Assembly (NCBI RefSeq): GCF_014174305.1
Contig: NZ_JABEQH010000023.1
Coordinates: forward strand, 1-56,652
Length of the DNA stretch: 56,652 nucleotides
DNA from: Gluconacetobacter johannae
Lineage (GTDB): Bacteria; Pseudomonadota; Alphaproteobacteria; Acetobacterales; Acetobacteraceae
Direction of reading: 5' to 3'
In this document: piece after piece, positions 13,052 to 34,161 of the stretch
Layout: each line of letters begins with the position of its first letter
How positions within the stretch are numbered: the stretch's first letter is position 1
Translations under genes and position numbers: made by a program
Notes under the pieces: model-generated
Database searches by the model: none
What the model saw: only the letters and a program-made list of their open reading frames with translations
What the model was told of the DNA's origin: nothing

Positions 13052-13789
13052 TCACGAATCATAGATCCCCACGAAGCGGGCATAGGCGTTTTCCAGATGC
13101 GTACGCATCGCCGCCGCGACGGCGTCGGGGTCGCGGGCGTGGAAGGCCTCGATGATGCGGGCATGTTCCACCAGCGCGTCCGTCGTGACCCGCGCGGACA
13201 GCCGCAGGCGGAACAGGCGCACATGGACGGCCTGCCGCACCAGGATGTCATGGTACAGTTCGTTCTGGCTGGCCTTCGCGATGGCCGCGTGGAAGCGGGT
13301 GTCTTCCTCGGCGAAACGGTTATAGGCCACCTGCGTGTCCGTGCTGAAGCGCTGGCCCATGCTGTCGGCGATGGCGGCGATGGCGTCGCGTTCGTCGTCG
13401 GACATCAGCACGGCGGCCTTGGCGGCGGCGGCGGGTTCGATCAGCAGGCGCAGTTCCGCCAGGTCGCTGAACTGCTTGCGCGTCAGTTGCGGGGCCGCCC
13501 GGTATCCCGACAGATGCACCTTGACGACCAGGCCCTGGGTTTCCAGCCGGCCCAGCGCCTCGCGGATCGGCGTCTGCGATACCTCCAGTTCGCGGACCAG
13601 GGCATCGACGCCGATGCGTTCCCCCGGCTCGATGTCCAGGGCCATCAGCCGTTTCAGCAGGATCTCGTAGACCTCGCCGGCCAGGCGGACGGGCCGGGGC
13701 AAAGGGCCGGCCGGCAGGGCCGCGGCATCCTGTCCCTCTGGCGGGGCGGACAGGGGAAACGGATCGGGTCGCGGCGGTCTCGCAAACAT
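13052..13789 (-). CDS. GntR family transcriptional regulator (FadR/FCD subfamily)
   Basis: 245 aa from the ATG at 13789; an upstream in-frame start at 13861 would run through the promoter region and is less likely. The N-terminal winged helix (about 40-100) contains GERIGVDALVRELEVSQTPIREALGRLETQGLV, typical for GntR. The C-terminal all-helical FCD effector domain (about 105-235) carries ELRLLIEPAAAAKA, RFHAAIAKAS and the His-containing HARIIEAF that bind metal and small carboxylates in this subfamily. It is divergent from the threonate/erythronate operon beginning at 13924 and most likely represses it until a sugar acid or its keto derivative is present. Its 3' end converges with the FAD protein. 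Confidence 0.88.
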   Translation of the reverse strand: MFARPPRPDPFPLSAPPEGQDAAALPAGPLPRPVRLAGEVYEILLKRLMALDIEPGERIGVDALVRELEVSQTPIREALGRLETQGLVVKVHLSGYRAAPQLTRKQFSDLAELRLLIEPAAAAKAAVLMSDDERDAIAAIADSMGQRFSTDTQVAYNRFAEEDTRFHAAIAKASQNELYHDILVRQAVHVRLFRLRLSARVTTDALVEHARIIEAFHARDPDAVAAAMRTHLENAYARFVGIYDS

Positions 13790-13825
13790 TTCTTGACATG
13801 CCCCCGTGAACTCAGCAACGTCCCC

Positions 13826-13850
13826 ATATCGTATATCCGATCGGATCGGA
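13826..13850. promoter_or_regulatory. Candidate operator in the divergent gntR / sugar-acid promoter
   Basis: The 134-base space between the divergent starts contains TATCGTATATCC followed by the perfect 12-bp palindrome ATCCGATCGGAT at 13835-13846. FCD-type GntR proteins usually bind short palindromes with a GTATA-like core, and TATCGTATA recurs upstream of the hydroxyproline genes at about 52627. The site is placed to control both directions. This is an inference from position and symmetry. Confidence 0.45.
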
Positions 13851-13923
13851 TCTGCGAACACAAAAAGAAAACAAGAAGAATGGTTGCGCCGTTATCGGGT
13901 CGTCGGATTCGGGGAAGCACCAC

Positions 13924-14868
13924 ATGAAGCACATCGCACTTGTCGGCTGTGGCCTGGTCGGGGGCTCGTGGGCCCTGGTGTTCGGCCGGGCAGGCTTCGA
14001 CGTCACGCTGTACGATCCCTCCCCCGCCGCCGTGCGGACCGCGCTGGACGTGGCGCGCGATGCCGCGGAGACGCTGGCCCGGCAGGACCTGCTGCATGCC
14101 GAGCGTGTCGAGGACGTGCTGGCGCGCCTGCACGCCGCCCCGTCACTGGCCGAGGCGGTGCGGGATGCCGACTATATCCAGGAAAGCGCGCCCGAACGCC
14201 TGGCGGTGAAGCAGGAACTCTATCGCGACCTGGCCGTGGCGGCGCGGCCCGACGCGGTGATCGCCAGCTCCACCTCGGGGCTGCCGGCGTCCGCCTTCAC
14301 GGCCGGGATCGCGGGCCGGTCGCGCTGCGTCGTCGCGCATCCGATCAACCCGCCACACCTGATCCCGCTGGTCGAGATCATTCCCGCCCCCTGGACCGAT
14401 CCATCGGTCGTGGCGCGCACCCACGCCCTGATGCGGGCGGTGGGCCAGGTCCCCATCCAGCTCAGCCGCGAAATCCCCGGCTTCGTGGTCAACCGCCTGC
14501 AAAGCGCCGTGCTGGCCGAGGGTTTTCGCCTGGTCGAGGACGGAATCTGCTCGCCCGACGACGTGGATGCCGCGATGTCGGACGGGCTGGGGCTGCGCTG
14601 GTTCTTCATGGGCCCGTTCGAGACCATCGACCTGAACGCCCAGGGCGGGATCGCCGATTACTGCCGCAAGCTGGGCCCGATGTACTACGATCTGGCGCGC
14701 GAACAGGCCGATCCGCGCCCCTGGGGCGAGGCGCTGGTCGCCCGCGTCGAGGCGGCGCGGCGCGGCAGGACGCCGGCCGCGGAGCTGGACGCGCGCAAGG
14801 CGTGGCGCGACCGGTGCCTGGCCCGGCTGGTGCGCGCCAAGAGGGAGATTGTGCAGGATCAGGAGTGA
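13924..14868 (+). CDS. CRYL1-like L-gulonate/3-hydroxyacid dehydrogenase
   Basis: 314 aa NAD-dependent enzyme of the 3-hydroxyacyl-CoA dehydrogenase superfamily. The N-terminal NAD motif GCGLVGGSWALVFGRAGF, then ASSTSG, the catalytic-region VAHPINPPHLIPLVE, and GFVVNRLQSAVLAEG with DGLGLRW and WRDRCLARL near the end all match lambda-crystallin (CRYL1), which oxidises L-gulonate at C3. It is the first gene of the run divergent from the GntR regulator and precedes a transporter and the ltnD-otnK-otnC-otnI set, so it probably oxidises a sugar acid or hydroxyacid rather than an acyl-CoA. The true substrate could be L-gulonate, a tetronate or carnitine-like hydroxyacid. Followed by a dispersed repeat before the next gene. 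Confidence 0.82.
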   Translation: MKHIALVGCGLVGGSWALVFGRAGFDVTLYDPSPAAVRTALDVARDAAETLARQDLLHAERVEDVLARLHAAPSLAEAVRDADYIQESAPERLAVKQELYRDLAVAARPDAVIASSTSGLPASAFTAGIAGRSRCVVAHPINPPHLIPLVEIIPAPWTDPSVVARTHALMRAVGQVPIQLSREIPGFVVNRLQSAVLAEGFRLVEDGICSPDDVDAAMSDGLGLRWFFMGPFETIDLNAQGGIADYCRKLGPMYYDLAREQADPRPWGEALVARVEAARRGRTPAAELDARKAWRDRCLARLVRAKREIVQDQE

Positions 14869-14872
14869 TGAG

Positions 14873-14918
14873 TCGGGCTTCGCCCGAGCCCACCAGGGCC
14901 TGAAGCCCTGGCCCCCGT
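14873..14918 (+). repeat. Dispersed composite palindromic repeat, copy A (short form)
   Basis: Reads GGGCTTCGCCC, then the spacer GAGCCCACC, then AGGGCCTGAAGCCCT and GGCCCCCG. Two small hairpins are joined by a conserved spacer, as in the other copies. It starts a few bases after the stop of the CRYL1-like gene, inside the presumed operon. Confidence 0.8.
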
Positions 14919-14997
14919 TCGATAGACTGCCTGCGCCGACGACAGACAAAAACAAGCCGCCTTCCGCGGTACAAGAACGTGTCGAAGGACTCTGGAC

Positions 14998-16356
14998 ATG
15001 AACGATCTGACGATGTCACGCGGCGCCGGCATCGGCGCCCCACCCCTTTCCGATGCCGGCGCGGAGGTGCAGCGCATGGCGCAGGCGCCCGATGCCCGGC
15101 GGCAACGGCGCCGGGCATCGGTCGGCAGCCTGATCGGCACCACCATCGAATGGTATGAATATTACATCTACGGCGCTACGGCGGCCCTGGTGTTCCCGCA
15201 TCTGTTCTTTCCCAGCCACAACCGGCTGGTGTCGCTGATGCTGTCCTTCGCCTCGTTCGGCGTCGCATTCCTCATCCGCCCGATCGGGGCGGCGGTCTTC
15301 GGGCATTTCGGCGACCGGGTGGGCCGCAAGACCACCCTGATCGTCACCCTGACCCTCAGCGGCCTGGCCACCTTCCTGATCGGCATCCTTCCGTCCTACG
15401 ACCGGATCGGCCTGTGGGCGCCGGCGCTGCTGGTGACGCTGCGGGTCGTCCAGGGCTTCGGCGTCGGCGGGGAATGGGGCGGGGCGGCGCTGATGTCGCT
15501 GGAATGGGGCGAGCAGGACCGGCGGGGGGCCGCCGGGGCATGGCCGCAGGTCGGCACCTCGATCGGGCTGATCCTGTCCACGTCGGCGGTGATGGGCGCC
15601 AGCCTGCTGACCGGCCCCGATTTCCTGGTGGGCGGGTGGCGCATTCCGTTCCTGCTGTCCGGGATACTGGTCATCGTCGGCCTGCTGGTGCGGCTGTCGA
15701 TCCGCGAGACGCCGTCGTTCGCCCAGGCCCTGCGGGAGAAGCGGATCGAGGCCAGCCCGGTGGGCACGGTGCTGCGCGGGTACTGGCGCGAAATCATCAT
15801 GATCGCGTTCCTGCGTATGTCCGAACAGATGCCGTTTTATATCTTCACCGCCTTCATCTTCGATTATGCCACCACCACCGCCCATGTCACCCGCACCTTC
15901 GTGCTGTCGGCGACGCTGGTCGCGGCGGTGATCGACATGATCCTGCTGCCGGTCTGCGCCGTGGCCGCCGATCGCATCGGCCGGCGAAGGATGTATTATA
16001 TCGGCTGCGCCGTACTGGTGCTGATGGCCTTTCCGTATTTCCGGATCCTGAATTCCGGCAATACCATGCTGATCTTCATCGCCATCGCGCTGTCGCTGCT
16101 GCCGCATGCGTTGCAGTACGGGGCGCAGGCGTCGCTGATTTCCGAGCAGTTTCCAGTGAATATCCGATATTCGGGCGCGGGGCTGGGCTACCAGATGTCC
16201 TCGCTGGTCGCGGGCGGCCCGGCGCCGCTGGTTGCGGCGGTTCTGCTGGCCTGGTCGGGCAGCGGCTACGCGGTGGCGGGGTACCTGGTCTTCGGCGGGG
16301 TCGTCGCGGCGGTGGCGCTGAGCCTGATGACGGATCGCAGCAAGGCCGCGATGTAG
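14998..16356 (+). CDS. MFS transporter, metabolite:H+ symporter (MHS) family
   Basis: 452 aa, 12 predicted membrane helices. The MHS N-terminal signature is clear (SLIGTTIEWYEYYIYG), followed by the loop FGHFGDRVGRK and RVVQGFGVGGEWGG. AAGGA lies about 11 bases before the ATG at 14998. It sits within the GntR-flanked sugar-acid gene set, 43 bases ahead of ltnD, so it very probably imports L-threonate, D-erythronate or a related hydroxyacid with protons. It is distinct in subfamily from the three ACS-type transporters further on. Confidence 0.87.
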   Translation: MNDLTMSRGAGIGAPPLSDAGAEVQRMAQAPDARRQRRRASVGSLIGTTIEWYEYYIYGATAALVFPHLFFPSHNRLVSLMLSFASFGVAFLIRPIGAAVFGHFGDRVGRKTTLIVTLTLSGLATFLIGILPSYDRIGLWAPALLVTLRVVQGFGVGGEWGGAALMSLEWGEQDRRGAAGAWPQVGTSIGLILSTSAVMGASLLTGPDFLVGGWRIPFLLSGILVIVGLLVRLSIRETPSFAQALREKRIEASPVGTVLRGYWREIIMIAFLRMSEQMPFYIFTAFIFDYATTTAHVTRTFVLSATLVAAVIDMILLPVCAVAADRIGRRRMYYIGCAVLVLMAFPYFRILNSGNTMLIFIAIALSLLPHALQYGAQASLISEQFPVNIRYSGAGLGYQMSSLVAGGPAPLVAAVLLAWSGSGYAVAGYLVFGGVVAAVALSLMTDRSKAAM

Positions 16357-16399
16357 GCCGCCACCTTCACCGGTCGTGAAACAGGAAGGACAGCACATC

Positions 16400-17329
16400 A
16401 TGAAACCCTCCATCGGGGTCATCGGCCTGGGCGCCATGGGGCTGGGCGTCGCGCAATCGCTGCTGCGGGCCGGATACGCCGTGCATGCCTGCGACATCCG
16501 GCCCGAGGTGCTGGCGGCTTTCGCCGCGCAGGGGGGTACGGCCAGCGCCACCCCCGCCGGCGTGGCCGAGGCGTGCGACATCGTCATCGTGCTGGTGGTG
16601 AACGCGGACCAGACCGACGCCGTGCTGTTCGGCCCCGACGGCGCGTTCGCCGCGATGCGGCCGGGCGGGCTGGTCATCGCCTGCGCGACCGTCGCCCCCG
16701 CCGCGATCGAGGCGCTGGAAACCCGGCTGCGCGCCGGGGGCGTGTGGCTGCTGGACGCGCCGATGTCGGGCGGGGCGGCGAAGGCCGCGACGGGCGAGAT
16801 GACACTGATGACCTCCGGCCCGCCCGAGGCCTACGACCGGGCGCGGGACGTGCTGCCGGCGATCGCCGGCCGGGTCTATCGCGTGGGCGACCGGGTGGGG
16901 CTGGGCACGCGGATCAAGATCATCAACCAGTTGCTGGCCGGGGTGCATATCGCCGCCGCCGCCGAGGCCATGGCGCTGGGCCTGCGCGAAGGGGCCGACC
17001 CGAAGACGGTGTACGACATCATCACCCACAGCGCCGGCAATTCCTGGATGTTCGAGAACCGCATGGCCCATGTGCTGGCCGGGGATTATACGCCGCTGTC
17101 GGCGGTCGATATCTTCGTCAAGGACCTGGGCCTGGTGCTGGACACCGCCCGCGCCGCGCGCTTTCCGCTGCCGCTGGCCTCGGCCGCGCACCAGATGTTC
17201 CTTCAGGCCGCCGCCGCCGGGCTGGGGCGCGAGGACGATTCCGCCGTCATCAAGATCTTTCCGGGCATTGCCCTGCCGGGCGCGGACCGCCCGGCCGGGA
17301 ACGGCAACGCAGGGGGAGCGGCGTCATGA
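16400..17329 (+). CDS. ltnD: L-threonate dehydrogenase
   Basis: 309 aa member of the beta-hydroxyacid dehydrogenase family. NAD motif GVIGLGAMGLGVAQSLLRAG at the N-terminus, substrate loop DAPMSGGAAKAATGEMT, and the catalytic Lys in RIKIINQLLAGVH are present. A strong AGGAAGGA precedes the ATG at 16400. LtnD oxidises L-threonate at C2 to 2-oxo-tetronate; the assignment to L-threonate rather than other hydroxyacids rests on the immediate downstream otnK, otnC and otnI, with which it overlaps by four bases (ATGA). Cytoplasmic. Confidence 0.87.
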   Translation: MKPSIGVIGLGAMGLGVAQSLLRAGYAVHACDIRPEVLAAFAAQGGTASATPAGVAEACDIVIVLVVNADQTDAVLFGPDGAFAAMRPGGLVIACATVAPAAIEALETRLRAGGVWLLDAPMSGGAAKAATGEMTLMTSGPPEAYDRARDVLPAIAGRVYRVGDRVGLGTRIKIINQLLAGVHIAAAAEAMALGLREGADPKTVYDIITHSAGNSWMFENRMAHVLAGDYTPLSAVDIFVKDLGLVLDTARAARFPLPLASAAHQMFLQAAAAGLGREDDSAVIKIFPGIALPGADRPAGNGNAGGAAS

Positions 17330-18639
17330 CGCAGGCCCACCGGCCCCTGCTGGGCTGCATCGCCGACGATTTCACCGGCGCGACCGACCTGGCCAGCACG
17401 CTGGTGGCGGGCGGGATGCGTACGGTGCAGACCATCGGGGTGCAGGACGATGCGAAGCTGGACGACATCGCGGCCGATGCGATCGTCGTCGCGCTCAAGA
17501 CCCGGACCGTTCCGGCGCACGAGGCCGTCGACCAATCGCTGGCCGCCCTGGCGTGGCTGCGCGCCAGGGGATGCCGGCAGATCTTCTTCAAATACTGCTC
17601 GACCTTCGATTCGACGCCGGCGGGCAACATCGGCCCGGTGACCCAGGCCCTGATGGCGGCCACGGGGACATCGCTGGCCATCGCCTGCCCGGCCTTTCCC
17701 GCCAATCAGCGCACGGTCTACAAGGGCTATCTGTTCGTGGGGGACGTGCTGCTGAGCGAGAGCGGGATGCGAAACCACCCCCTGACGCCGATGCGCGACC
17801 CCAGCCTGGTGCGGGTGTTGCAGGCGCAGACCGAGGCAACGGTGGGGCTGGTCGCGCATCAGGTGGTGGCGCGGGGGGCCGAGGCCGTGCGTGCGCGCCT
17901 CGCGCAGTTGCGGGCCGAGGGCGCCGGCATGGCCATCGCCGACGCGCTGGACGAGCGGGACCTGCTGGTGCTGGGCGAGGCCTGCGCCGACCATCCGCTG
18001 GTGACCGGCGGGTCGGGCATGGCGATGGGCCTGCCCGCCAATTTCCGCCGGCAGGGCCTGCTGCCGGCGCAGGACGCGACCGTGCTGCCCCGCATCGCCG
18101 GCCGCTGCGCGGTGCTGGCCGGCAGCGCGTCCGACATGACCAACCGGCAGGTCGCGCAGTGGCTACAGGACGGCCGACCGGCCTTCCGGATCGACCCCAT
18201 GCTGCTGGCGGCGGGCGAGCCGGTGGTGGCCCGCGCACTGGCTTTCGCCCGGCGCAGCATCGGCACGCCGCTGATCTATGCCACCGGCCCGGCCGATGAG
18301 GTCGCGGTGGTGCAGCGCCGCCTGGGGGTGCAGGCCGCCGGCGCGATGATCGAGCACACGATGGGCGACCTGGCCCAAGGGTTGCGCGAACAGGGCGTGC
18401 GGCATTTCGTGGTGGCGGGCGGCGAGACCTCGGGCGCCGTGGTCCTGGCGCTGGGGGTGGAGATGCTGCGGATCGGGGCGCCGATCGCGCCGGGGGTGCC
18501 GGCCACCGTCAGCCTGGGGCCGGACCGGATGGGCTTCGCGCTGAAATCGGGCAATTTCGGCGGGCCGGATTTCTTTGCCGAGGCCGTGGCGGCGCTGGCA
18601 GGATCGGACGCGGCGGACGCGATGAGGGTGGGATCATGA
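17326..18639 (+). CDS. otnK: 3-oxo-tetronate kinase (DUF1537 family)
   Basis: 437 aa four-carbon acid-sugar kinase. The N-terminal signature IADDFTGATDLAST and the C-terminal nucleotide-binding VVAGGETSGAVV are diagnostic for the DUF1537 kinases. It phosphorylates 3-oxo-tetronate at C4 using ATP, the third step of the L-threonate/D-erythronate pathway. Translationally coupled on both sides by four-base ATGA overlaps with ltnD and otnC, so the three proteins should be made in step. FPANQRTVYKGYLFVGDVLLSES also fits the family. Confidence 0.92.
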   Translation: MTQAHRPLLGCIADDFTGATDLASTLVAGGMRTVQTIGVQDDAKLDDIAADAIVVALKTRTVPAHEAVDQSLAALAWLRARGCRQIFFKYCSTFDSTPAGNIGPVTQALMAATGTSLAIACPAFPANQRTVYKGYLFVGDVLLSESGMRNHPLTPMRDPSLVRVLQAQTEATVGLVAHQVVARGAEAVRARLAQLRAEGAGMAIADALDERDLLVLGEACADHPLVTGGSGMAMGLPANFRRQGLLPAQDATVLPRIAGRCAVLAGSASDMTNRQVAQWLQDGRPAFRIDPMLLAAGEPVVARALAFARRSIGTPLIYATGPADEVAVVQRRLGVQAAGAMIEHTMGDLAQGLREQGVRHFVVAGGETSGAVVLALGVEMLRIGAPIAPGVPATVSLGPDRMGFALKSGNFGGPDFFAEAVAALAGSDAADAMRVGS

Positions 18640-19277
18640 GCGTGGAGGGCATGCGGCGCGAGGAGATCTGCCTGATCGGGTGGAACCTGCACCGGCGTGG
18701 CTATACGGTGGGCAGTTCGGGCAATATCAGCGTCCGCCTCGAGGACGGCTGGCTGGTCACGCCGACCGACGCCTGCCTGGGGCGGCTCGACCCCGCCGCC
18801 ATCGCGCGGATCTCGTCCAATGGCGACTGGATATCCGGCGACCGCCCGTCCAAGACGCTGGCGCTGCACCGGCGGATCTATGACAACCGCCCCGACTGCC
18901 ATGGCGTGGTCCACACCCATTCCACCCATCTGGTGGCGCTGACGCTGGCGGGCGTGCATGCGCCCGATGCCATCCTGCCGCCGATCACCCCCTATCAGGT
19001 GATGAAGGTCGGGCGGATTCCGCTGATCGCCTACGACCGGCCGGGGGCGCCGGCGGTGGCCGAGCAGGTGGGCGCGCTCGCGCGCCATGTCCGGGGCGTG
19101 ATGCTGGAACGCCTGGGCCCGGTCCTGTGGGGGGCCAGCGTCACCCAGGCGGCGGACGCGCTGGAGGAGCTGGAGGAAACGGCGCGCCTGTGGCTGATGA
19201 CCCTTCCCCGCCCCGCCCCGCTGGGGCCGGAGCAGCTTGCCGATCTGTGCCAAGCCTTCGGCGTGACCTGGCCCTGA
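18636..19277 (+). CDS. otnC: 3-oxo-tetronate 4-phosphate decarboxylase, class II aldolase family, with unusual active site
   Basis: 213 aa. It has the class II aldolase/adducin fold markers GSSGNISVRL, VTPTDACLG and the zinc motif HTHSTH (about residue 91-96). OtnC splits 3-oxo-tetronate 4-phosphate to dihydroxyacetone phosphate and CO2. Two positions differ from what I recall of the family: the Glu in PSKE, which binds metal or acts as a base, is Thr (PSKTLALH), and the third zinc His, normally in NHG before PVxxG, is replaced (ERLGPVLWG). Position in the ltnD-otnK-otnC-otnI run supports the role, but the activity of this copy should not be taken for granted. Confidence 0.8.
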   Translation: MSVEGMRREEICLIGWNLHRRGYTVGSSGNISVRLEDGWLVTPTDACLGRLDPAAIARISSNGDWISGDRPSKTLALHRRIYDNRPDCHGVVHTHSTHLVALTLAGVHAPDAILPPITPYQVMKVGRIPLIAYDRPGAPAVAEQVGALARHVRGVMLERLGPVLWGASVTQAADALEELEETARLWLMTLPRPAPLGPEQLADLCQAFGVTWP

Positions 19278-19313
19278 TTGTTTCGTGCGCCGACAGCAAG
19301 GATATCCCGCGCC

Positions 19314-20111
19314 ATGCCCGCCTTCGCCGCCAACCTGACGATGAATTACGTCGAATGCGACTTCCTGGACCGTTTCGCCGCCGCGGCCGCGGACGGGTTT
19401 CGCGGTGTCGAGTTCCTGTTTCCCTACGCGCATCCCGCGTCCGAGATCCAGGCCCGCCTGCGCGACAACGATCTGGCGATGGCGCTGTTCAATGCCCCGC
19501 CGGGGGACTGGGCGGCGGGCGAACGCGGCCTGGCCGCCCTGCCGGGGCGGCAGGACGAGTTCCGCCGCAGTATCGAGACCGCGCTGGCCTATGCGGCCGT
19601 CCTGGGCAACCGCCGCCTGCATGTGATGGCCGGCCTGTGCCCCGATGGGGACGCACGCGCCCGGCATCACGACGTCTATGTGGACAACATTGCCCACGCC
19701 GCCCGCCAGGCGCGCGACGCCGGCGTGACGATCGTGCTGGAAGCGATCAACACCCGCGACATGCCTGGATATTTCCTGACCCGCCAGGAAGACGCTGCGG
19801 CGGTCTGCGCCGCCGTGGGCGCGGACAATGTCCGGGTCCAGTTCGACCTCTATCATGCCCAGATCATGCAGGGCGACGTCGCCACCCGCCTGCGCGCGCT
19901 GATGCCGGTGATCGGCCATGTCCAGGCGGCCGGCGTGCCCGACCGGCACGAACCCGACGACGGGGAACTGGCCTACCCGTACCTGTTCCGCCTGCTGGAT
20001 ACGCTTGGCTACGCCGGCTGGGTCGGATGCGAATACCGCCCCCGTGGGACGATGCGCGCGGGGCTGGGCTGGATCGAACCCTGGCGCGGACGCAGCGCCC
20101 CCTCGCCGTAG
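19314..20111 (+). CDS. otnI: 2-oxo-tetronate isomerase (hydroxypyruvate isomerase family)
   Basis: 265 aa TIM barrel of the xylose-isomerase-like group. Metal/catalytic motifs are visible: [14 protein letters not shown] (Glu), [14 protein letters not shown] (Asp and His), and WVGCEYRP (Glu). OtnI interconverts 2-oxo- and 3-oxo-tetronate, linking the LtnD and DenD products to OtnK. The ATG at 19314 is preferred over an in-frame TTG at 19278 because it matches the family start ([14 protein letters not shown]); AAGGAT lies upstream. Last gene of the first sugar-acid run, followed by a degenerate repeat copy. Confidence 0.88.
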
Positions 20112-20120
20112 CACGACGCA

Positions 20121-20198: not shown

Positions 20199-20219
20199 GC
20201 ATGCCGTTTGCATCATTCC

Positions 20220-21043: not shown

Positions 21044-21069
21044 GTCCATCCCTGCCCGCGACGCGCGGC

Positions 21070-25021: not shown

Positions 25022-25084
25022 CGCTTTCCGACCACAGAACGGGGTCAACCCGTCTTGCCCCCAAGGGGCCGGAGACAGTCCGAC

Positions 25085-26518: not shown

Positions 26519-26559
26519 CTTCTTCCGAAATCGTCTTTCCTGCACAGGAGATTCATCCG

Positions 26560-27492
26560 ATGCCTGCAACCCTGCCCTGGAACCGCCACAACTGGCCGAT
26601 CGCGGCCGCGATGATCCAGTATCCGAACATCCTGCCCGACGGGCGATGCGTGCAGGATGTACCGGCCGAGGAGTGGGCGGCGACCCTGGCCGATGTCGCG
26701 GACGCCGGCTTCACGGAACTCGACCCCACCGATTCCTGGCTGCGGATCGCCGATCTGGGCCGCAGCCGGCTGGACGAATTCATGGGCGTGGTGCGCGACG
26801 CCGGGCTGACGATCCCCGCCATCTCGACCGCGCGGCGCAGCGTGATCGACGCGCAACATGGCGAGGAGTACCTGGATTATTCCCATCGGCTGATCGACGT
26901 GGCGGCGGAAATCGGCGCCGGGGCGGTGTCCTTCGGGCTGTTCCAGGCGCTGACGCCGGAACAGAAGCGCGCGCTGTGGTTCTGGACGGTCGATGGCTAC
27001 CGCGACCCAGACGACCGCGCGACCTGGGCCCTGGCGGTCCGCCGCCTGCGCGAACTGGGCCGGCACGCCGCCGACGCCGGCATCGAACTGTCGCTGGAGA
27101 TGTACGAGGACACCTATCTGGGCACCGCCGACAGCGCGGTCCGCTTCGTCACCGACATCGACCTGCCGAATGTGGGGCTGAACGCCGACCTGGGCAATCT
27201 GGTGCGGATGCACCGGCCGGTCGAACACTGGCGGACGATGATGGAGAAGGTCGCGCCCTTCGCCCGCTACTGGCACGTGAAGAACTATTTCCGCACCGAG
27301 GACGCGACCACGGGAATGGTCGTCACCGCGCCGGCGCCGCTGGAATTCGGCGTCATCAGCTATCGCGCGGCCATCCGCGAGGCGCTGGGGCACGGGTTCC
27401 GTAGCGCCTTCCTGGTGGAACATTACGGCGGCGACGGGCTGAGCGTCAGCGCCACCAACCGCGAATACCTGCGCCGCATCCTGCCGCGCTGA
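26560..27492 (+). CDS. Sugar phosphate isomerase/epimerase-type TIM barrel protein (possible sugar-acid decarboxylase or isomerase)
   Basis: 310 aa of the xylose-isomerase-like TIM barrel superfamily. Metal-binding residues typical for the fold are visible: Glu in IELSLEMYEDTY, Asp in LNADLGNLVRMH, His in ARYWHVKNYF, Glu in FLVEHYGGDG. AGGAG stands 10 bases before the ATG at 26560. It sits between a tetronate-type transporter and the tetrulose kinase. From memory, the 3-oxo-isoapionate decarboxylase OiaC of D-apionate catabolism belongs to this superfamily and feeds the same kinase and isomerases through L-erythrulose, so that role is possible here; a simple isomerase or epimerase is equally compatible with the sequence. 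Confidence 0.7.
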   Translation: MPATLPWNRHNWPIAAAMIQYPNILPDGRCVQDVPAEEWAATLADVADAGFTELDPTDSWLRIADLGRSRLDEFMGVVRDAGLTIPAISTARRSVIDAQHGEEYLDYSHRLIDVAAEIGAGAVSFGLFQALTPEQKRALWFWTVDGYRDPDDRATWALAVRRLRELGRHAADAGIELSLEMYEDTYLGTADSAVRFVTDIDLPNVGLNADLGNLVRMHRPVEHWRTMMEKVAPFARYWHVKNYFRTEDATTGMVVTAPAPLEFGVISYRAAIREALGHGFRSAFLVEHYGGDGLSVSATNREYLRRILPR

Positions 27493-27528
27493 AGACGCAT
27501 CACGGAAAACGCCAGGAGTACACGCGAC

Positions 27529-29241
27529 ATGACGCATATCCATAATGGGGCCGACGGCTTCGCGGCGACGGCGCTGGACGGGTTCTGCGACGTTCACGCC
27601 CATCTGGTCCAGCGTATCCGCGGCGGCGTGATGCGGGCCACCGCCACGCCCCCCGGCAAGGTCGCCGTGGTCATCGGCGGCGGCAGCGGCCATTACCCGG
27701 CCTTCGCCGGCTATGTCGGGCCGGGCCTGGCCGACGCCGCCGTGGCCGGCGACATCTTCGCCTCGCCCTCGGCCAGGGCGGTCTACGATGTCTGCAAGCG
27801 GGCGGATCGCGGCGGCGGCGTGGTGCTGATGTTCGGCAACTATGCCGGCGACGTGCTGAATTTCAACATCGCCGCCGAACGGCTGCGTCGCGAAGGGATC
27901 GACACGCGCATCGTGGCGATCACCGACGACATCGCCAGCGCGCGCGAACCGGCAAGGCGGCGCGGCATCGCGGGCGACCTGCCGGTGCTGAAGCTGGCCG
28001 CCGCCGCCGCCGAAGCCGGCCGGCCGCTGGACGAGGTGGCGCGGATCGCGCGCCACGCCAACGACCGCACGCGCTCGTTCGGCGTGGCGTTCGGCGGCTG
28101 CACCCTGCCGGGCGCCGAGGCGCCCCTGTTCTCGGTCCCGGCGGGGCACATGGCGCTGGGCCTGGGCATCCATGGCGAGCCCGGCATCGACGAGGTCGCG
28201 ATCCTGCGGGCCGGCGACCTGGCGACCCTGCTGGTCGGCCGGCTGCTGGACGACATGCCGGCCGGCGCGGGCACGCCTGTCGCGGCGGTGCTGAACGGGC
28301 TGGGCGGCACCAAGCAGGAGGAGCTGTTCGTGCTGTGGACGTCCGTCGCCGCCGGGCTGCGGAATGCCGGCCTGGACGCGATCCGCCCCGAGGTGGGCGA
28401 GTTCATCACCAGCCTGGACATGGAAGGGTGCTCGCTGTCGCTGACCTGGCTGGACGACACGCTGGAACCCCTGTGGACCGCCCCCTGCGACAGCGCCGCC
28501 CTGACGCGCGGAACCATCATCCCGACCACGCCGGCCCCGAAAATCGAGGACACCGCCGACCAGGCCGCCGCCTGGGCCCCGTCATCCGCCGCGTCGCGCG
28601 CCGCCGGGCAGGCGGTGGCCGAGGCGATGAGCCTGCTGGCGGCGACGCTGGACGGGGCCGAGGCGGAACTGGGCCGGATCGACGCCCACGCCGGCGACGG
28701 CGATCATGGCCGGGGCATGGCCTGCGGGTCGGCGGCCGGCGCGCGCGCCGCGCGGGACGCCGCGACCGAGGGGGCCGGGGCCGGCGACGTGCTGACGGCG
28801 GCGGCCGACGCCTGGGCCCACCGGGCGGGCGGCACGTCGGGGGCGTTGTGGGGCCTGGGGCTGCAAAGCGCCGGCCGGGCGATCGGCAACCAGGACGCCC
28901 CCTCGGCGGTGGGCGTGGCCCAGGCCGCCCGCACCGCGCTGGACGCCGTGATGCGGCTGGGCGGCGCGCGCCCCGGCGACAAGACGCTGGTCGACGCGCT
29001 GCTGCCGTTCGTCGAGACGCTGGAACGCGAGAGCGCGAGCGGCGCCGGGCTGGCGCGGTCCTGGCACGCGGCGGTCGGGGCCGCCACCGCCGCGGCCGAG
29101 CGCACCGCCGACCTGCTGCCGCGCATCGGGCGCGCCCGCCCGCTGGCGGCGCGCAGCAAGGGTCACCCCGACGCCGGCGCGGTGTCGCTGGCGCTGTGCG
29201 CCCGCACGATCCTGAAGATGATGGAGCATGAAAATGTCTGA
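27529..29241 (+). CDS. Dihydroxyacetone-kinase family kinase (DhaK-DhaL fusion), probable L-erythrulose kinase
   Basis: 570 aa, ATP-dependent type with both halves in one chain. DhaK half (1-335): [15 protein letters not shown] and the substrate-binding His in GIHGEPG. DhaL half (360-570): the ADP/Mg site [13 protein letters not shown] and GGTSGALWG. Kinases of this type act on dihydroxyacetone or on tetruloses. The next genes encode RpiB-like and triose-phosphate-isomerase-like enzymes, which is the gene context of L-erythrulose kinase (LerK) in the erythritol/threitol pathways, so L-erythrulose is the more likely substrate. The reading frame overlaps the following isomerase gene by eight bases. 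Confidence 0.85.
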
Positions 29242-29719
29242 CAGCCCGCGCACATGGCGCGTCGTCATCGGCAGCGACGATGCCGGCCTGCACTATCGTG
29301 CCGCCCTGGCCCGCGACCTGCGGCAGGACCCACGGGTGGCCGAGGTCATCGACATCGGCGTCGGCGACGACGAGCACACCGACTATCCCCACGTCGCCGT
29401 CCGCGCCGCCCGCATGATCGCCGACGGGCGGGCCGACCGGGGCCTGCTGATCTGCGGCACCGGGCTGGGGGTGGCGATCAGCGCCAACAAGGTGCCGGGC
29501 ATCCGCGCGGTCACCGCCCATGATTCCTACTCGGTCCAGCGCGGCGTGCTGAGCAACGACGCGCAGGTCCTGTGCATGGGCGAGCGGGTGATCGGGCTGG
29601 AACTGGCGCGGATGCTGGTGCGGGACTGGCTGGGCTATCGCTTCGACCGGCAATCGGCCTCGGCGGCGAAGGTGGCCGCCATCTGCAGCTACGAACCGGC
29701 CCCCGCCCACGCGCTGTAA
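29234..29719 (+). CDS. derI: RpiB-family isomerase, probable D-erythrulose 4-phosphate isomerase
   Basis: 161 aa from the ATG at 29234, which has GGAG seven bases upstream (an ATG at 29228 is too close to it). RpiB features: [16 protein letters not shown] at the N-terminus, and [23 protein letters not shown] with the active-site Cys. In the known pathway DerI (EryI in Brucella) converts D-erythrulose 4-phosphate to D-erythrose 4-phosphate for the pentose phosphate route. Overlap with the kinase gene and the nearby LerI-like gene support this over plain ribose 5-phosphate isomerase. Confidence 0.82.
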
Positions 29720-29758
29720 CACAGCCGGGCGACAGACATCGGACAGCAGGAACACGAC

Positions 29759-30730
29759 ATGACCATCCAGATCAGAAATGTCGCCGTCATCGGCGCGGGC
29801 TACATGGGGGGCGGCATCGCCCAGTCGCTGGCCCTGGCGGGGGTCGGGGTCACGCTGGCCGACGCCTCGCCCGACGCCACGGCTGCGGCGCTGCGACGCC
29901 TGCATGACGAGGCCGGGGCCTTCGAGCGCCAGGGACTGTTTCCGCCCGGCGCGGCGGGGCTGATCGCCGACAATCTGCGTGCCGCCGGCTCGATCGCGGA
30001 AGCGGTGGCCGACGCCGATTTCATCGAGGAGGCGGTGCCCGAGATCCCGGCGCTGAAGCGCGAGGTGCTGGCCCGGATCTCGGACGCGGCGCGGCCCGAT
30101 GCGATCATCGCGACCAACACATCCACCCTGCCGGTCCATACGCTGGCCGACGCGGTGCGCCACCCCCGCCGCTTCCTGACGGTGCATTTCAGCAACCCCG
30201 CGCCGTTCATCCCCGGCGTCGAACTGGTCTGCGGCGCGGACACCGACCCCGCGATCGTGCCGGCGATCCGCGAATTGCTGGCCCGCGCCGGGCGGCGCTG
30301 CGCGCAGGTGGCCGACACGCCGGGCTTCGTGCTCAACCGGCTGCAATATGTGCTGCTGAAGGAGGCGACCCTGATCGTCGAGGAAGGTGTCGCAACACCC
30401 GAGGACGTGGACACGCTGGTCAGCACCACCTTCGGCTTCCGGCTGCCCTTCTTCGGCCCGTTCGCCATCGCCGACATGGCGGGGCTGGATGTCTACGCCA
30501 ACTGCTTCCGCACGTTCGAGGAGGCCTTCGGCCCCCGCCTGGCCACCCCGGCCTCGCTGACCGCCCTGGTGGCCGAAGGCAGGTTCGGCACCAAGTCGGG
30601 CGCGGGCTATTCCGGCAGCTTCGACAAGACGCAGACCGACGCGCTGATCGCCTATCGCAACAAGGCCTATGCGCGGATGGGCCAGCTTCTGCAGGACCTC
30701 GGCCCCTCCCCCCTCCAGCGGAAGGAGTAG
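29759..30730 (+). CDS. 3-hydroxyacyl-CoA dehydrogenase family oxidoreductase
   Basis: 323 aa. NAD motif VAVIGAGYMGGGIAQSLALAG, catalytic region TVHFSNPAPFIPGVELV (the usual His is present as VHFSNP), GFVLNRLQYVLLKEA and a C-terminal domain with FGFRLPFFGPFAIADMAGLD. Paralogous to the CRYL1-like gene at 13924 but distinct. It lies 39 bases after derI and 4 bases before the lerI-like gene, so it belongs to the tetrulose operon; no acyl-CoA enzymes are nearby, so the substrate is probably a free hydroxyacid. Its reaction in this pathway is not described to my knowledge. Confidence 0.8.
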   Translation: MTIQIRNVAVIGAGYMGGGIAQSLALAGVGVTLADASPDATAAALRRLHDEAGAFERQGLFPPGAAGLIADNLRAAGSIAEAVADADFIEEAVPEIPALKREVLARISDAARPDAIIATNTSTLPVHTLADAVRHPRRFLTVHFSNPAPFIPGVELVCGADTDPAIVPAIRELLARAGRRCAQVADTPGFVLNRLQYVLLKEATLIVEEGVATPEDVDTLVSTTFGFRLPFFGPFAIADMAGLDVYANCFRTFEEAFGPRLATPASLTALVAEGRFGTKSGAGYSGSFDKTQTDALIAYRNKAYARMGQLLQDLGPSPLQRKE

Positions 30731-30734
30731 GGCC

Positions 30735-31526
30735 ATGTCCGATCCCTCCGCCCCCGGCCGGCCCTTCTGGGTGGGCACGAGCTGGAAGATGAACGGCCTG
30801 CCCGACGACGCCCGCAGCTATGCCGAACGCATCGCGGCGGTGGACGACTGGCACGGCGTCCTCCCCTTCGTCATGCCGCCCTTCACCGTCCTGGCCGATG
30901 TCGCGCGCCTGCTGCGCGACAGCCCGGTGCAGGTGGGCGGGCAGAACATGCACTGGGACGAGTCAGGGTCCTGGACCGGCGAGATCTCGGCCCCGATGCT
31001 GCGCCAGTGCGGCGCGACGATGGTCGAACTGGGCCATTCCGAACGACGCCGGCATTTCGGCGAGACCGACGAGACCGTCAACCAGAAAGTCCACGCCGCG
31101 CTGCGCCATGGGCTGACCCCGCTGGTCTGCATCGGCGAGACGCAGGCCGAACGGGACGGGGGCGTGTCCGACCTGGTCCTGGCCCGCCAGGTGCGCCTGG
31201 CGCTGCATGGGCTGACGGCGGCCCAGGCGGGCCGCGTGATGTTCGCCTACGAACCCGTCTGGGCGATCGGCGAGGCCGGACGCCCCGCCCCGCCCGCGCT
31301 GGTGGCGCAGGCCGCCGCCGGCATCCGGCAGGAACTGGACCGCGCCGCCGACGCCCCCGGCGCATCCCCGCTGCTGTACGGCGGCAGCGTGAACCTGGAA
31401 AACGCGGCGCCCTATGCCGCGCTGGCCGACATCGACGGCCTGTTCGTGGGCCGCGCCGCCTGGACCGCCGAGGGCTACGCCGCCCTGGCGCGCGCTGCCG
31501 CGCGCCCGCCGCGCCGGGGGCCATAG
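30735..31526 (+). CDS. lerI: Triose-phosphate-isomerase-like enzyme, probable L-erythrulose 1-phosphate isomerase
   Basis: 263 aa TIM barrel. WVGTSWKMNG carries the catalytic Lys, VELGHSERRRHFGE the catalytic His, and FAYEPVWAIGEAG the catalytic Glu; LLYGGSVNLENA is the phosphate loop. The form GTSWKMN, instead of GNWKMN, is what I recall for the LerI/EryH subgroup, which turns L-erythrulose 1-phosphate into D-erythrulose 4-phosphate. AAGGAG precedes the ATG at 30735, four bases after the previous stop. Together with the kinase and derI it completes the tetrulose-to-erythrose-4-phosphate route. Ordinary TpiA is the alternative. Confidence 0.83.
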   Translation: MSDPSAPGRPFWVGTSWKMNGLPDDARSYAERIAAVDDWHGVLPFVMPPFTVLADVARLLRDSPVQVGGQNMHWDESGSWTGEISAPMLRQCGATMVELGHSERRRHFGETDETVNQKVHAALRHGLTPLVCIGETQAERDGGVSDLVLARQVRLALHGLTAAQAGRVMFAYEPVWAIGEAGRPAPPALVAQAAAGIRQELDRAADAPGASPLLYGGSVNLENAAPYAALADIDGLFVGRAAWTAEGYAALARAAARPPRRGP

Positions 31527-31572
31527 GCGGCGACCCCGCGCGCTTCCCCCTTTCCGTTCGGAGTATCGCGCC

Positions 31573-32892
31573 ATGCCACGGCTACGATGGATCATGGTCA
31601 TCCTGTGCTTCGCGGCCACGACGATCAATTATATCGACCGGGCGACCGTATCGGTCGCGGCCCCCTTCATCGCGCGCGACCTGCATCTTGGCCCGGCGGT
31701 GCTGGGCGTGGTGCTCAGCGGCTTCTTCTGGACCTATGCGGCCATGCAGGTGCCGGCGGGCCTGGTGGTCGACCGGCTGGGGCCGCGCCTGACCTATGCC
31801 GTCGCCGTGCTGTGGTGGTCGTTCTTCACGGCCGTCACCTCGGTGGTCAACAGCGCGGCGCTGCTGTTCGGCTGCCGCTTCGCGCTGGGCGTCGGCGAGG
31901 CGGGAAGCTATCCGTGCAACACCAAGGTCGCGGCCCAATGGTTCCCCACCCGCGAACGCGGGCTGGCCTCGGGCATCTTCGACAGCGGGTCGCGCGCCGG
32001 GTCGGCGCTGTCGATGCCGCTGATCGCGCTGCTCATCAGCTTTACCGGCTGGCGTCTGGCCTTCGTCGTCACCGGGCTGGTGGGGGTGGCGTGGGTGGTG
32101 GCGTGGCTGCTGCTCTATCGCGATCCGGACCGCCATCCCGGCGTCACCGCGCGGGAACTGGCGGCGTTGCGGGCGGCGCAGCCCGCCGCGCAGGCCCAGG
32201 GCGCCCAGGCAGGGGCGGCGGTGCCGTTCCGCGCCCTGTTCCGCTACCGGACGGTGTGGGGGATGATGATCGGCTTCTTCTGCCTGAATTTCGTCTTCTA
32301 TTTCTACACCACCTGGTTTCCGACCTACCTGGTGCAGGCACGCAATTTCTCGCTGCATCGACTGGGCGTGCTGGGCATGCTGCCGGGCCTGGCGGCGGTG
32401 CCGTCCGCCTGGATCGGTGGCTGGACGTCGGACCGGCTGTACCGCGCGGGCTGGAGCCTGACCGCCGCGCGCAAGACCTGCCTGGTCGGCGGCATGCTGC
32501 TGTCGTCGGTCATCACGCTGTCGGCCTTTACGCGCAGCGACGCGCTGTGCCTGGCATTCTTCACCACGGCCTATGCGGGCATCGCCTTGGCCGGCGCCAA
32601 TATCTGGTCGCTGCCCGCCGACGTCGCCCCCAGTGCGGCGCATGTCGCCTCGCTCAGCGGCATCCAGAACGGGGCGGCCAACCTGTCGGGCATCCTGACC
32701 GCGACCATGACCGGCGTCATCCTCAAGATCACCGGCGGCTCGTTCATCGCGCCGCTGTGCATCACCGGCGGGTTCTGCGTGCTGGGGGCGATGACCTATC
32801 TGTTCGTCGTGGGGCCGATCGCCCCGTTGCCGCCGCTGGCCGGCAGAACCCCGGCGGCAGGTCGGGCGTTGCCCGAACCCACCAGGGCCTGA
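31573..32892 (+). CDS. MFS transporter (ACS family) whose C-terminus is encoded by a dispersed repeat
   Basis: 439 aa from ATG 31573 with GGAG about 10 bases upstream. Helix 1 motif ATTINYIDRATVSVAAPFIA, then VPAGLVVDRLGPR, are of the sugar-acid ACS group. After the last membrane helix the reading frame enters repeat copy E, which encodes the final residues [10 protein letters not shown] and the stop codon, so the repeat inserted into or replaced the original end of the gene. Within the tetrulose operon it probably imports the substrate that the neighbouring enzymes use. Confidence 0.86.
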   Translation: MPRLRWIMVILCFAATTINYIDRATVSVAAPFIARDLHLGPAVLGVVLSGFFWTYAAMQVPAGLVVDRLGPRLTYAVAVLWWSFFTAVTSVVNSAALLFGCRFALGVGEAGSYPCNTKVAAQWFPTRERGLASGIFDSGSRAGSALSMPLIALLISFTGWRLAFVVTGLVGVAWVVAWLLLYRDPDRHPGVTARELAALRAAQPAAQAQGAQAGAAVPFRALFRYRTVWGMMIGFFCLNFVFYFYTTWFPTYLVQARNFSLHRLGVLGMLPGLAAVPSAWIGGWTSDRLYRAGWSLTAARKTCLVGGMLLSSVITLSAFTRSDALCLAFFTTAYAGIALAGANIWSLPADVAPSAAHVASLSGIQNGAANLSGILTATMTGVILKITGGSFIAPLCITGGFCVLGAMTYLFVVGPIAPLPPLAGRTPAAGRALPEPTRA

Positions 32893-32916
32893 GGCCCTGG
32901 ACCCCGATCAGGGATC
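32861..32916 (+). repeat. Dispersed composite palindromic repeat, copy E, overlapping a gene end and a ribosome-binding site
   Basis: GGGCGTTGCCC, GAACCCACC, AGGGCCTGAGGCCCT, GGACCCCGATCAGGGAT in order. The first half is translated as the tail of the MFS transporter, whose TGA lies in AGGGCCTGAGG. AGGGA at 32910-32914 stands eight bases before the ATG of the next gene and is its best Shine-Dalgarno candidate. Confidence 0.88.
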
Positions 32917-32922
32917 AATGAC

Positions 32923-34161
32923 ATGACCGTTCTGTCCATTGTGCCGACACGTCCTGTGGGTATGTCGTCCGCCACGGCGGCGGCCGCGCCGGTCCCGCGC
33001 CTGTGGGGGCGCTATCTCAACCTCGATGATTTCGAGGCCGCCGCGCGCCATCGCCTGCCCCGCGCCATCTACGGCTATGCCAGCGGCGGCGCGGCCGACG
33101 GCGGGGCGGTGCGCGACAATCGCGCCGCCTTCGGCCGCTGGCATTTCGTGACGCGGATCCTGCGCGACGTGGCGTCGCGCACGCCGGCGCGCACCCTGTT
33201 CGGCCATCGCTATGACGTGCCGTTCGGCATCGCGCCCATGGGCGCCGCGGCGGTGGCGGCCTTCGATGCCGATATGCGGATGGCGCGGGCCGCGCGCGCC
33301 GCCAACCTGCCGTTCGTGCTCAGCGCCAATTCCATCACGCCGATGGAGGCGGTGGCGGCGGTCAATCCCGGCATCTGGTTCGCCGCCTACCTGCCGCCGG
33401 CCCCGGTCCATATCGACGGCATGCTGGCCCGCGTCGCCGCCGCCGGAATTAGGGTGCTGGTGGTGACGGTGGACGTCCCCGCCGGATCGAACCGCGAGGC
33501 CGAACGGCGCAACGGCTACACCATGCCCCTGCGCCCGAACGCGCGCCTGGTCGCCGACGGGCTGGCCCATCCGCGCTGGCTGCTGGGCACCGCGGCCCGC
33601 ACCCTGGCGCGCCAGGGGGTGCCGGTCATTTCCAACATCCGGCCGCGCGGGGGGCCGGGCCTGTTCTCGCGTCAGGTCAGCTTCATCGGCGGGGACGGCG
33701 CCTTCACCTGGGATCATGTGCGGCAGATCCGCCGGTCATGGCAGGGGACGCTGGTGCTGAAAGGGGTGCTGTCGCCCGCCGATGCCCGCCTGGCGCGGCA
33801 GCATGGCGCCGACGGCATCGTCGTCTCGAACCATGGCGGCCGCCAGCTGGACGGTGTGGCGTCGCCCATGGACATGCTGGGCGCGGTCCGCGATGCAAGC
33901 GGCGACATGGCGGTGCTGGTCGACAGCGGCTTCCGCCGGGGCGGCGACATCCTGAAGGCGCTGGCCCTGGGGGCGGATTTCGTGCTGATCGGCCGCCCGT
34001 TCCTCTACGCCGCCGCCCTGGCCGGCGAAGCCGGCGTGCGCCATGCGGCCGGGCTGCTGCGCCGCGAGGTCGACCTGGACATGGCGCAGCTTGGCCTCGC
34101 CACGCTGGCCGACATCGGCCCCGCGTGCCTGATCCCAGCTTTCCGAAAGACTGACGCATGA
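32923..34161 (+). CDS. FMN-dependent alpha-hydroxy-acid oxidase/dehydrogenase
   Basis: 412 aa member of the glycolate oxidase/L-lactate dehydrogenase family, oxidising a 2-hydroxyacid to the 2-oxoacid. YGYASGGA (FMN-site Tyr), FGIAPMGAAAVAA, VLVVTVDVPAGSNRE, GTLVLKGVLSPADA (Lys), the catalytic SNHGGRQLD (His and Arg) and RGGDILKALALGADFVLIGRP are present. The segment normally FQLY is FAAYLPP, so the usual Gln is replaced by Ala. Last gene of the denD operon, with its start site in repeat copy E. A tetronate or threonate-like 2-hydroxyacid is a reasonable substrate guess, with electrons to the quinone pool or oxygen. Confidence 0.85.
   Translation: MTVLSIVPTRPVGMSSATAAAAPVPRLWGRYLNLDDFEAAARHRLPRAIYGYASGGAADGGAVRDNRAAFGRWHFVTRILRDVASRTPARTLFGHRYDVPFGIAPMGAAAVAAFDADMRMARAARAANLPFVLSANSITPMEAVAAVNPGIWFAAYLPPAPVHIDGMLARVAAAGIRVLVVTVDVPAGSNREAERRNGYTMPLRPNARLVADGLAHPRWLLGTAARTLARQGVPVISNIRPRGGPGLFSRQVSFIGGDGAFTWDHVRQIRRSWQGTLVLKGVLSPADARLARQHGADGIVVSNHGGRQLDGVASPMDMLGAVRDASGDMAVLVDSGFRRGGDILKALALGADFVLIGRPFLYAAALAGEAGVRHAAGLLRREVDLDMAQLGLATLADIGPACLIPAFRKTDA

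Follow-up and report, generated by a model that had tools for sequence, protein, structure and literature searches.

Two adjacent catabolic operons in Gluconacetobacter johannae: a predicted L-threonate route and a probable sugar-acid route through erythrulose

A block of 18 recognised genes and a small DUF1272 gene lies at positions 13,052-34,161 of a Gluconacetobacter johannae contig (NZ_JABEQH010000023.1, assembly GCF_014174305.1), of which a stretch of 56,652 nucleotides, here called the window, was analysed. Two neighbouring catabolic operons make up the block and move together. Operon A (13,924-20,111) has the gene order HCD1-MFS1-ltnD-otnK-otnC-otnI with a divergent GntR regulator gene, operon B (24,020-34,161) has the order denD-MFS3-TIMb-Dak-rpiB-HCD2-tpi-MFS4-FMN with a LysR regulator gene upstream, and MFS2 sits between them in the opposite orientation. 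Operon A is predicted to be the known pathway from L-threonate to dihydroxyacetone phosphate (DHAP), and operon B probably converts another sugar acid to erythrulose and from there to a central sugar phosphate. The overall reading, with the L-threonate route in operon A and a route from a sugar acid through L-erythrulose to erythrose 4-phosphate in operon B, is given a probability of about 0.5.

The genes of the block are ordinary in kind. All 18 genes of an initial annotation, made from the sequence without database searches, were found in place by profile searches, and its counts of four major facilitator superfamily (MFS) transporters, two dehydrogenases of the 3HCDH kind (HCD1 and HCD2), one GntR and one LysR regulator were right. 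TIMb denotes a xylose-isomerase-like TIM-barrel protein, Dak a Dak-type kinase and FMN a 2-hydroxyacid dehydrogenase or oxidase (Table 1).

Results

Coupling of HCD2, TIMb and Dak

The sample comprised 150 Acetobacteraceae genomes from 102 genera, the host's own included. At E<=1e-60, TIMb was found in 14 genomes from 12 genera, and HCD2 in exactly the same 14 at the same cut-off; for HCD2 and other genes scoring was limited to the top candidates from an initial screen (at most 14 per genome for HCD2), so that weak extra copies could escape. A Dak match of any kind occurred in 59 genomes, and 19 remained when LerK-like kinases were defined by matches above 400 bits and the weaker ones, generic dihydroxyacetone kinases, were set aside. 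The 19 include a gene truncated at a contig edge (G132) and one with two in-frame stops (G126). LerK-like Dak was present in all 14 TIMb genomes and in 5 of the other 136. The nominal Fisher values (5.6e-20 for HCD2 and 6.5e-16 for Dak) are too small because the genomes are related, which takes weight from the coupling.

A TIMb copy is found no more than 5 kb from HCD2 in nine of the 14 genomes but not in G008, G022, G046, G071 and G126, so linkage alone cannot explain the match between the two distributions. The distance is about 11 kb from a second TIMb copy in G008. In G126, a genome of 2.0 Mb, the matches to TIMb, HCD2 and denD are shorter than the queries, and together with the stops in Dak this suggests that the whole set may be decaying together.

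The coupling extends beyond the family, with RpiB and Tpi joining it in some of the taxa. Arthrobacter sp. StoSoilB13 carries GntR-TIMb-Dak-rpiB-HCD2-SDR-MFS-tpi in one run, with identities to the window of 55% (TIMb), 51% (Dak), 70% (rpiB), 57% (HCD2), 46% (MFS) and 40% (tpi). Within the Acetobacteraceae the orders TIMb-Dak-rpiB-HCD2 (G009) and Dak-rpiB-tpi-HCD2 (G071) were seen. Streptomyces sp. NBC_01445 carries TIMb, Dak and rpiB followed by a permease, GntP by eye, and an LtnD-like protein (36%), and the arrangement in Rhizobiales is GntR-PdxA-TctCBA-TIMb-Dak (annotated in three regions and found by BLAST in loci L022, L026 and L043). A full tail at a single locus is seen in only some of the taxa. 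The initial annotation had left TIMb and HCD2 without a place in the textbook routes; they are instead the pair with the tightest coupling in operon B, and Dak, rpiB and tpi accompany them even in Arthrobacter. Its figure of at least four unplaced enzymes falls to two, HCD1 and the FMN enzyme.

The partners in other taxa (TctCBA, PdxA, LtnD-like proteins, DenD and HCD2) point to a sugar acid as substrate. They weaken the earlier suggestion that the block is supplied with L-erythrulose by periplasmic oxidation of erythritol, because the partners of TIMb-Dak elsewhere (TctCBA, PdxA, GntP-like and LtnD-like proteins) resemble sugar-acid systems. Beside TIMb-Dak-tpi-HCD2, loci L132 and L133 both carry a DapA-family protein and L132 also a UxaA-like one; these identities, read by eye, would fit sugar-acid neighbours.

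Among 80 named TIMb loci, taken from 555 TIMb relatives counted, Dak was found in 65 and denD in 16 within the DNA examined. Only the two Gluconacetobacter loci have both, and one locus cut by a contig end has neither.

The tail of operon B

Dak, Tpi and RpiB are candidates for the LerK, LerI and DerI steps, and operon B appears by sequence to carry a tail of this type leading to erythrose 4-phosphate. PMC10733421 describes LerK, LerI and DerI as converting L-erythrulose to D-erythrose 4-phosphate, steps that are established for relatives of these proteins. The closest solved relative of Tpi is 11ef, named L-erythrulose-1-phosphate isomerase (245 bits), followed by a triosephosphate isomerase (176 bits). 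In a tree of 51 Dak sequences, a diverse pick in which the window's Dak occurs twice, that Dak falls inside a clade of 41 rows separated from the other ten by a 100/100 branch, although branching inside the clade is resolved only in part and some of the rows are long. The clade takes in the kinases linked to TIMb in Rhizobiales, Arthrobacter and Streptomyces, together with LerK-like kinases of other acetic acid bacteria; one of the ten outside, from Tropicimonas on a long branch, is also TIMb-linked. In several other acetic acid bacteria the LerK-like kinase has a locus of its own, accompanied by rpiB, tpi or both and by what reads by eye as an ABC transporter.

The TIM-barrel protein

TIMb had no NCBIfam match over cut-off, and no OiaC model was among its NCBIfam matches. 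In Foldseek its model (pLDDT 89) matches 5tnv, an M. smegmatis protein in complex with Mg, with 50% identity and a TM score of 0.94. Beyond 5tnv the profile and fold matches include ketose 3-epimerases, UlaE and IolE, the other fold rows shown having 11-19% identity. Residues E180, D210, H239 and E287, which we take from epimerase structures to be the metal site, are invariant in 35 aligned sequences, the window's included. TIMb may decarboxylate a 3-oxo acid, epimerise a tetrulose or isomerise an oxo acid. The LerK/LerI/DerI pathway is known from M. smegmatis.

Operon B as a mosaic

TIMb and denD are closest to operons of the LysR-denD-MFS3-TIMb type in acetic acid bacteria (69-79% for TIMb), where a LysR gene stands ahead of denD in loci L004, L006, L012, L016 and L142. 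For Dak (60-68%) and rpiB (65-71%) the nearest counterparts stand in the Dak-rpiB/tpi-HCD2 operons of other genera, which are also among the closest for HCD2 (68-74%). Tpi has 54-59% identity with the tpi products of other LerK loci but only 40-44% with those of G086, G056 and G071. By these identities, and by a tree in the case of Dak, operon B looks like a mosaic that joins a head and a tail under one LysR. DenD has 2hrz as its closest solved chain (3.5e-136); its reaction is known, but its partner enzymes vary between genomes. The best solved relative of the FMN enzyme is (S)-mandelate dehydrogenase, 6bfg.

Operon A and HCD1

LtnD, OtnK, OtnC and OtnI all score over the cut-offs of their NCBIfam equivalogs and are contiguous at 16400-20111. 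PMC12540250 gives the established route as L-threonate to the 2-oxo acid, the 3-oxo acid, the 3-oxo acid 4-phosphate and DHAP, and PMC10580937 has DenD as the entry of D-erythronate into the Otn route. By analogy with these relatives, LtnD would oxidise L-threonate to 2-oxo-tetronate, OtnI would isomerise this to 3-oxo-tetronate, OtnK would phosphorylate it and OtnC would decarboxylate the product to DHAP. DenD of operon B could also supply operon A with D-erythronate. The tetronate and tetrulose-phosphate modules are adjacent, as first annotated, the Otn set by its cut-off scores and the LerK/LerI-type Dak and Tpi by sequence. The idea of a merger of two C4 routes stands for operon A, which is predicted to be a known C4-acid route, whereas operon B looks like a conserved route from a sugar acid to erythrulose phosphate.

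HCD1 has lambda-crystallin (3ado, 7.8e-75) as its best solved relative; lambda-crystallin is known as an L-gulonate 3-dehydrogenase. By analogy HCD1 could convert a tetronate directly to the 3-oxo acid used by OtnK and so bypass OtnI. Relatives matched in 41 plasmid records, and of the three regions inspected two have adjoining HisD and SDR genes with sugar ABC genes near, while the third has an adjoining 3-keto-5-aminohexanoate cleavage protein; such neighbours fit HCD1 as a maker of 3-oxo acids. HCD1 does not appear to be a standard part of otn operons, since none was found when the stretches around otnK in 15 further Acetobacteraceae genomes were inspected; three of these stretches are under 20 kb long (6.1, 11.6 and 16.9 kb). 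Beta-oxidation of CoA esters is not the favoured role for HCD1 or HCD2: among the block's genes none was recognised as a CoA ligase, a thiolase or an acyl-CoA dehydrogenase, and the partners of HCD2 elsewhere are sugar-type genes. HCD1 and the FMN enzyme may each have a role in the routes of the block.

Extent and unity of the block

Collinear DNA in Gluconacetobacter tumulisoli covers window positions 13,049-34,131, with pieces longer than 2 kb at 87-93% identity and gaps at about 20.1-20.7 and 23.8 kb. The fetched flanks of Ga. tumulisoli gave no match to the window on either side at E 1e-20. The collinear match ends at the block and the flanks differ, which argues that the block limits are real and not due to chance. 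GntR, HCD1 and MFS1 are also present in Ga. tumulisoli, with GntR as the end gene of the shared block. Among the matches listed, the nearest named relatives of TIMb are in Gluconacetobacter azotocaptans (96% identity) and Ga. tumulisoli (94%). TIMb was found in three of 14 genomes of the genus, the host's own included, so the block is patchy within the genus.

Gene order and short gaps suggest the operon limits given above; a consensus scan for promoters and terminators in the window gave no excess over shuffled sequence. Starts were corrected for ltnD (16,400), otnI (19,314), MFS3 (25,085), TIMb (26,560), tpi (30,735) and MFS4 (31,573). TIMb is missing as an entry of its own in the plain list of open reading frames because a longer frame in the same phase (25354-27492) begins far upstream, and the overlapping wrong-frame reading at 26463-27404 had no family match.

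Table 1. Genes of the block, with window positions, strand and the profile evidence for each
Feature	Position	Strand	Evidence
GntR/FCD regulator of operon A	13052-13861	-	PF00392 + PF07729; divergent from HCD1
HCD1, 3-hydroxyacid dehydrogenase, lambda-crystallin type	13924-14868	+	NF004783 437.8 bits, cut-off 347
MFS1, metabolite/H+ symporter-like	14998-16356	+	PF00083/PF07690; TIGR00883 394 bits, under cut-off 443
ltnD, L-threonate dehydrogenase	16400-17329	+	NF043037 459 bits, cut-off 350
otnK, 3-oxo-tetronate kinase (DUF1537)	17326-18639	+	NF043035 611 bits, cut-off 350
otnC	18636-19277	+	NF043034 267 bits, cut-off 250
otnI, 2-oxo-tetronate isomerase	19314-20111	+	NF043033 395 bits, cut-off 325
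MFS2, galactonate-type transporter	21070-22473	-	PF07690; TIGR00893 264 bits, under cut-off 395
LysR regulator, upstream of operon B	22745-23734	+	PF00126 + PF03466
denD, D-erythronate dehydrogenase family	24020-25021	+	NF043036 362.6 bits, cut-off 325
MFS3, transporter paired with denD	25085-26518	+	PF07690
TIMb, xylose-isomerase-like TIM barrel	26560-27492	+	PF01261 (AP_endonuc_2), searched from residue 2 on
Dak-type kinase, LerK-like	27529-29241	+	NF011049 712 bits, cut-off 492
rpiB, DerI-like sugar-phosphate isomerase	29228-29719	+	TIGR02133 200 bits, cut-off 168
HCD2, 3-hydroxyacid dehydrogenase, 3HCDH family	29759-30730	+	PF02737 + PF00725
tpi, LerI-like, L-erythrulose-1-phosphate isomerase type	30735-31526	+	NF000722 334 bits, cut-off 293
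MFS4, galactonate-type transporter	31573-32892	+	PF07690; TIGR00893 305 bits, under cut-off 395
FMN 2-hydroxyacid dehydrogenase/oxidase	32923-34161	+	PF01070; under lactate dehydrogenase cut-offs

The small DUF1272 gene lies between the operons at about 20,792-21,043, and related DNA (81% over 324 bases) is present in Ga. tumulisoli. A perfect palindrome of 19 bp (CCAGGGCCT-N-AGGCCCTGG) occurs at 22677-22695, 23820-23838, 32882-32900, 35144-35162 and 38154-38172, and in 47 places in the 3.63-Mb genome compared with none for the reversed pattern. The two copies flanking LysR fall in stretches of about 120-150 bp that the aligned DNA of Ga. azotocaptans lacks, and for this reason look like insertions resembling repetitive extragenic palindromes (REP-like). 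Outside the block, genes of the GntR, proline-racemase, DapA and DAO families follow each other at 49710-54014 and look like a cluster for hydroxyproline breakdown.

Discussion

In the proposed route operon B would import a second sugar acid, which its transporters may carry. HCD2 would oxidise the 3-hydroxyl of the acid with NAD+ to a 3-oxo acid, and TIMb, as a metal-dependent enzyme, would act on this oxo acid, or on the tetrulose left after loss of CO2, to give L-erythrulose. Dak would then form L-erythrulose 1-phosphate, Tpi of the LerI type would shift the carbonyl, yielding D-erythrulose 4-phosphate, which RpiB of the DerI type would convert to D-erythrose 4-phosphate. The simplest substrate would be a five-carbon acid, either a pentonate or a branched acid, because loss of CO2 leaves four carbons and the tail handles C4 phosphates.

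Several observations weigh against this route. RpiB scores only 148 bits with the DerI model NF051858, under its cut-off of 240, and passes TIGR02133 instead; this lowers its name but not its likely role, because the short name of the model points to Rhizobiales. A LerK-like Dak without TIMb occurs in five genomes (G001, G053, G060, G132 and G135), and G086 and G056 have TIMb-Dak-tpi-HCD2 with no rpiB shown. HCD2 was not found beside TIMb-Dak in the examined loci of Rhizobiales. Within the DNA examined, tpi and rpiB are found together in only three of 63 named TIMb-Dak loci outside Gluconacetobacter, and ten named loci of acetic acid bacteria have denD, MFS3, TIMb, MFS4 and FMN with no Dak. 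The apparently complete metal site of TIMb and its folds shared with ketose 3-epimerases mean that decarboxylation is not the sole reading of this enzyme. Moreover, denD adjoins TIMb in ten of the 14 TIMb genomes, and seven of these ten have no OtnK match (OtnK was found in 4 of the 14 compared with 87 of the other 136). This suggests that in those genomes DenD feeds something other than OtnK, and that their true substrate may be a C4 acid.

The last point leads to a reading confined to C4 compounds, in which DenD, perhaps with the FMN enzyme, gives 2-oxo-tetronate, TIMb isomerises it as OtnI does, loss of CO2 gives dihydroxyacetone, and Dak and Tpi lead to glycolysis, an erythronate route free of OtnK. 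It would also accommodate the denD-MFS3 pair of G132, which lacks a TIMb match and stands in a stretch with otnC and otnI. However, RpiB would then have no task, yet it is found alongside Dak, with 65-71% identity, in G009, G053, G071, Arthrobacter and Streptomyces. In addition, Tpi is nearer to LerI than to triosephosphate isomerases, TIMb and OtnI gave no BLAST match at E 1, and no denD was found in the examined DNA of the Rhizobiales TIMb-Dak loci, all of which makes this reading distinctly unlikely. It is possible, though doubtful, that TIMb is a tetrulose 3-epimerase which turns D-erythrulose, formed when the product of the dehydrogenase loses CO2 by itself, into L-erythrulose for Dak. 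This overlaps with the preferred route and fixes only the step of TIMb. The nearest named families of TIMb by profile and fold include D-psicose, D-tagatose and L-ribulose 3-epimerases, the four putative metal residues are invariant, and PdxA-type enzymes, which are the partners in Rhizobiales, release CO2 themselves. On the other hand, the similarity outside 5tnv is as low as stated above and also covers isomerases, a hydratase and IolE.

D-apionate is an unlikely substrate, although it would suit the tail of operon B. TIMb would here be OiaC, reportedly described by Carter and co-workers in 2018 as 3-oxo-isoapionate decarboxylase, and operon B the branch from apionate to L-erythrulose with another enzyme replacing ApnO. 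The OiaC reaction yields exactly the substrate of LerK, and a partial OiaX relative was found about 9 kb from TIMb in L026. In L012, a metagenome-assembled genome of Rhodospirillales, next after LysR-denD-TIMb-MFS comes a protein with 43% identity to a Shinella D-apionolactonase candidate, which was named from its place in the OiaX cluster; this keeps a branched acid possible. Against D-apionate, PF16896, which we take to be the ApnO family, had no match in the host genome and was positive on the Shinella plasmid, in its OiaX cluster; it was present in 6 of 17 TIMb-bearing genomes or records searched, that plasmid being one of the six, and in none of 14 control genomes. The lactonase candidate occurs in 9 of the 150 genomes but in none of the 14 with TIMb, with no match in the host genome at E<=1e-20, and the OiaX cluster and TIMb-Dak are separate loci on Shinella pShin-03. 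To our knowledge, D-apionate also has no oxidisable 3-hydroxyl for HCD2. Use of D-apionate by the known ApnO route is therefore unlikely in this host. As a separate observation, the L012 protein is part of a single frame of 1078 amino acids (L012:10946-14182) directly downstream of TIMb, in which an MFS-like part is joined to the part like the lactonase candidate, by fusion or by an assembly slip.

It is highly improbable that TIMb is EryC and operon B a variant ery locus. PMC3599248 and PMC5992420 place EryC, TpiB/EryH and RpiB/EryI together in ery loci, and S. meliloti and S. medicae are tabulated there as EryC-positive species. TIMb found a single match, its own ortholog, at E<=1e-3 in each of three genomes (S. 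meliloti 4H41, S. medicae USDA1037 and Ensifer sp. LCM 4579), in which no direct search for EryC was made. The block proteins, to which this search was confined, include no recognised FGGY kinase or FAD dehydrogenase of the EryA/EryB kind.

The preferred route from a sugar acid to erythrose 4-phosphate would place in one pathway two enzymes that are named in databases only "3-hydroxyacyl-CoA dehydrogenase" and "sugar phosphate isomerase/epimerase". A wider proposal is put forward tentatively and is somewhat doubtful, namely that an undescribed route extends from Acetobacteraceae to Actinomycetota, in which a 3HCDH-type enzyme would oxidise a C5 acid at C3 and a metal-dependent barrel enzyme of the xylose-isomerase kind would form L-erythrulose, to be fed as erythrose 4-phosphate into the pentose phosphate pathway. 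The first dehydrogenases (HCD2, PdxA, LtnD-like and DenD) would be interchangeable, and the route would be a bacterial C5 counterpart of the animal conversion of L-gulonate to L-xylulose. Acetic acid bacteria release many sugar acids outside the cell, and their re-uptake is poorly known. Many rhizobia have TIMb and Dak side by side, and a soil Arthrobacter has both with HCD2; knowledge of the substrate would therefore be of wide use.

Comparison with known systems

The D-apionate pathways (ApnL, ApnO and OiaC/OiaK/OiaX, with an annotated OiaX in Shinella) may share the intermediate L-erythrulose with operon B. They differ in that the host genome gave no match to the ApnO family or to the lactonase candidate, and OtnK of the block reaches 117 bits where the OiaK model asks for 700. 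The ery locus of Brucella and Sinorhizobium has Tpi and RpiB partners in common with operon B, but the block has no EryA or EryB and TIMb is unlikely to be EryC.

The LerK/LerI/DerI pathway likewise has a Dak-type kinase, a LerI-like triosephosphate-isomerase-type protein and RpiB, which stand here in one operon. No tetritol dehydrogenase of the EltD type was recognised among the block proteins, the rest of the genome not being searched for one. In contrast to that pathway, the tail is here accompanied by HCD2 and TIMb, and RpiB scores under the DerI cut-off.

Of the L-threonate/D-erythronate pathway, all five enzymes (LtnD, DenD, OtnI, OtnK and OtnC) are present over curated cut-offs. The kinds of genes resemble those in the threonate/erythronate clusters of Sinorhizobium, R. 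etli and Brucella, but here denD lies in the neighbouring operon and HCD1 heads operon A.

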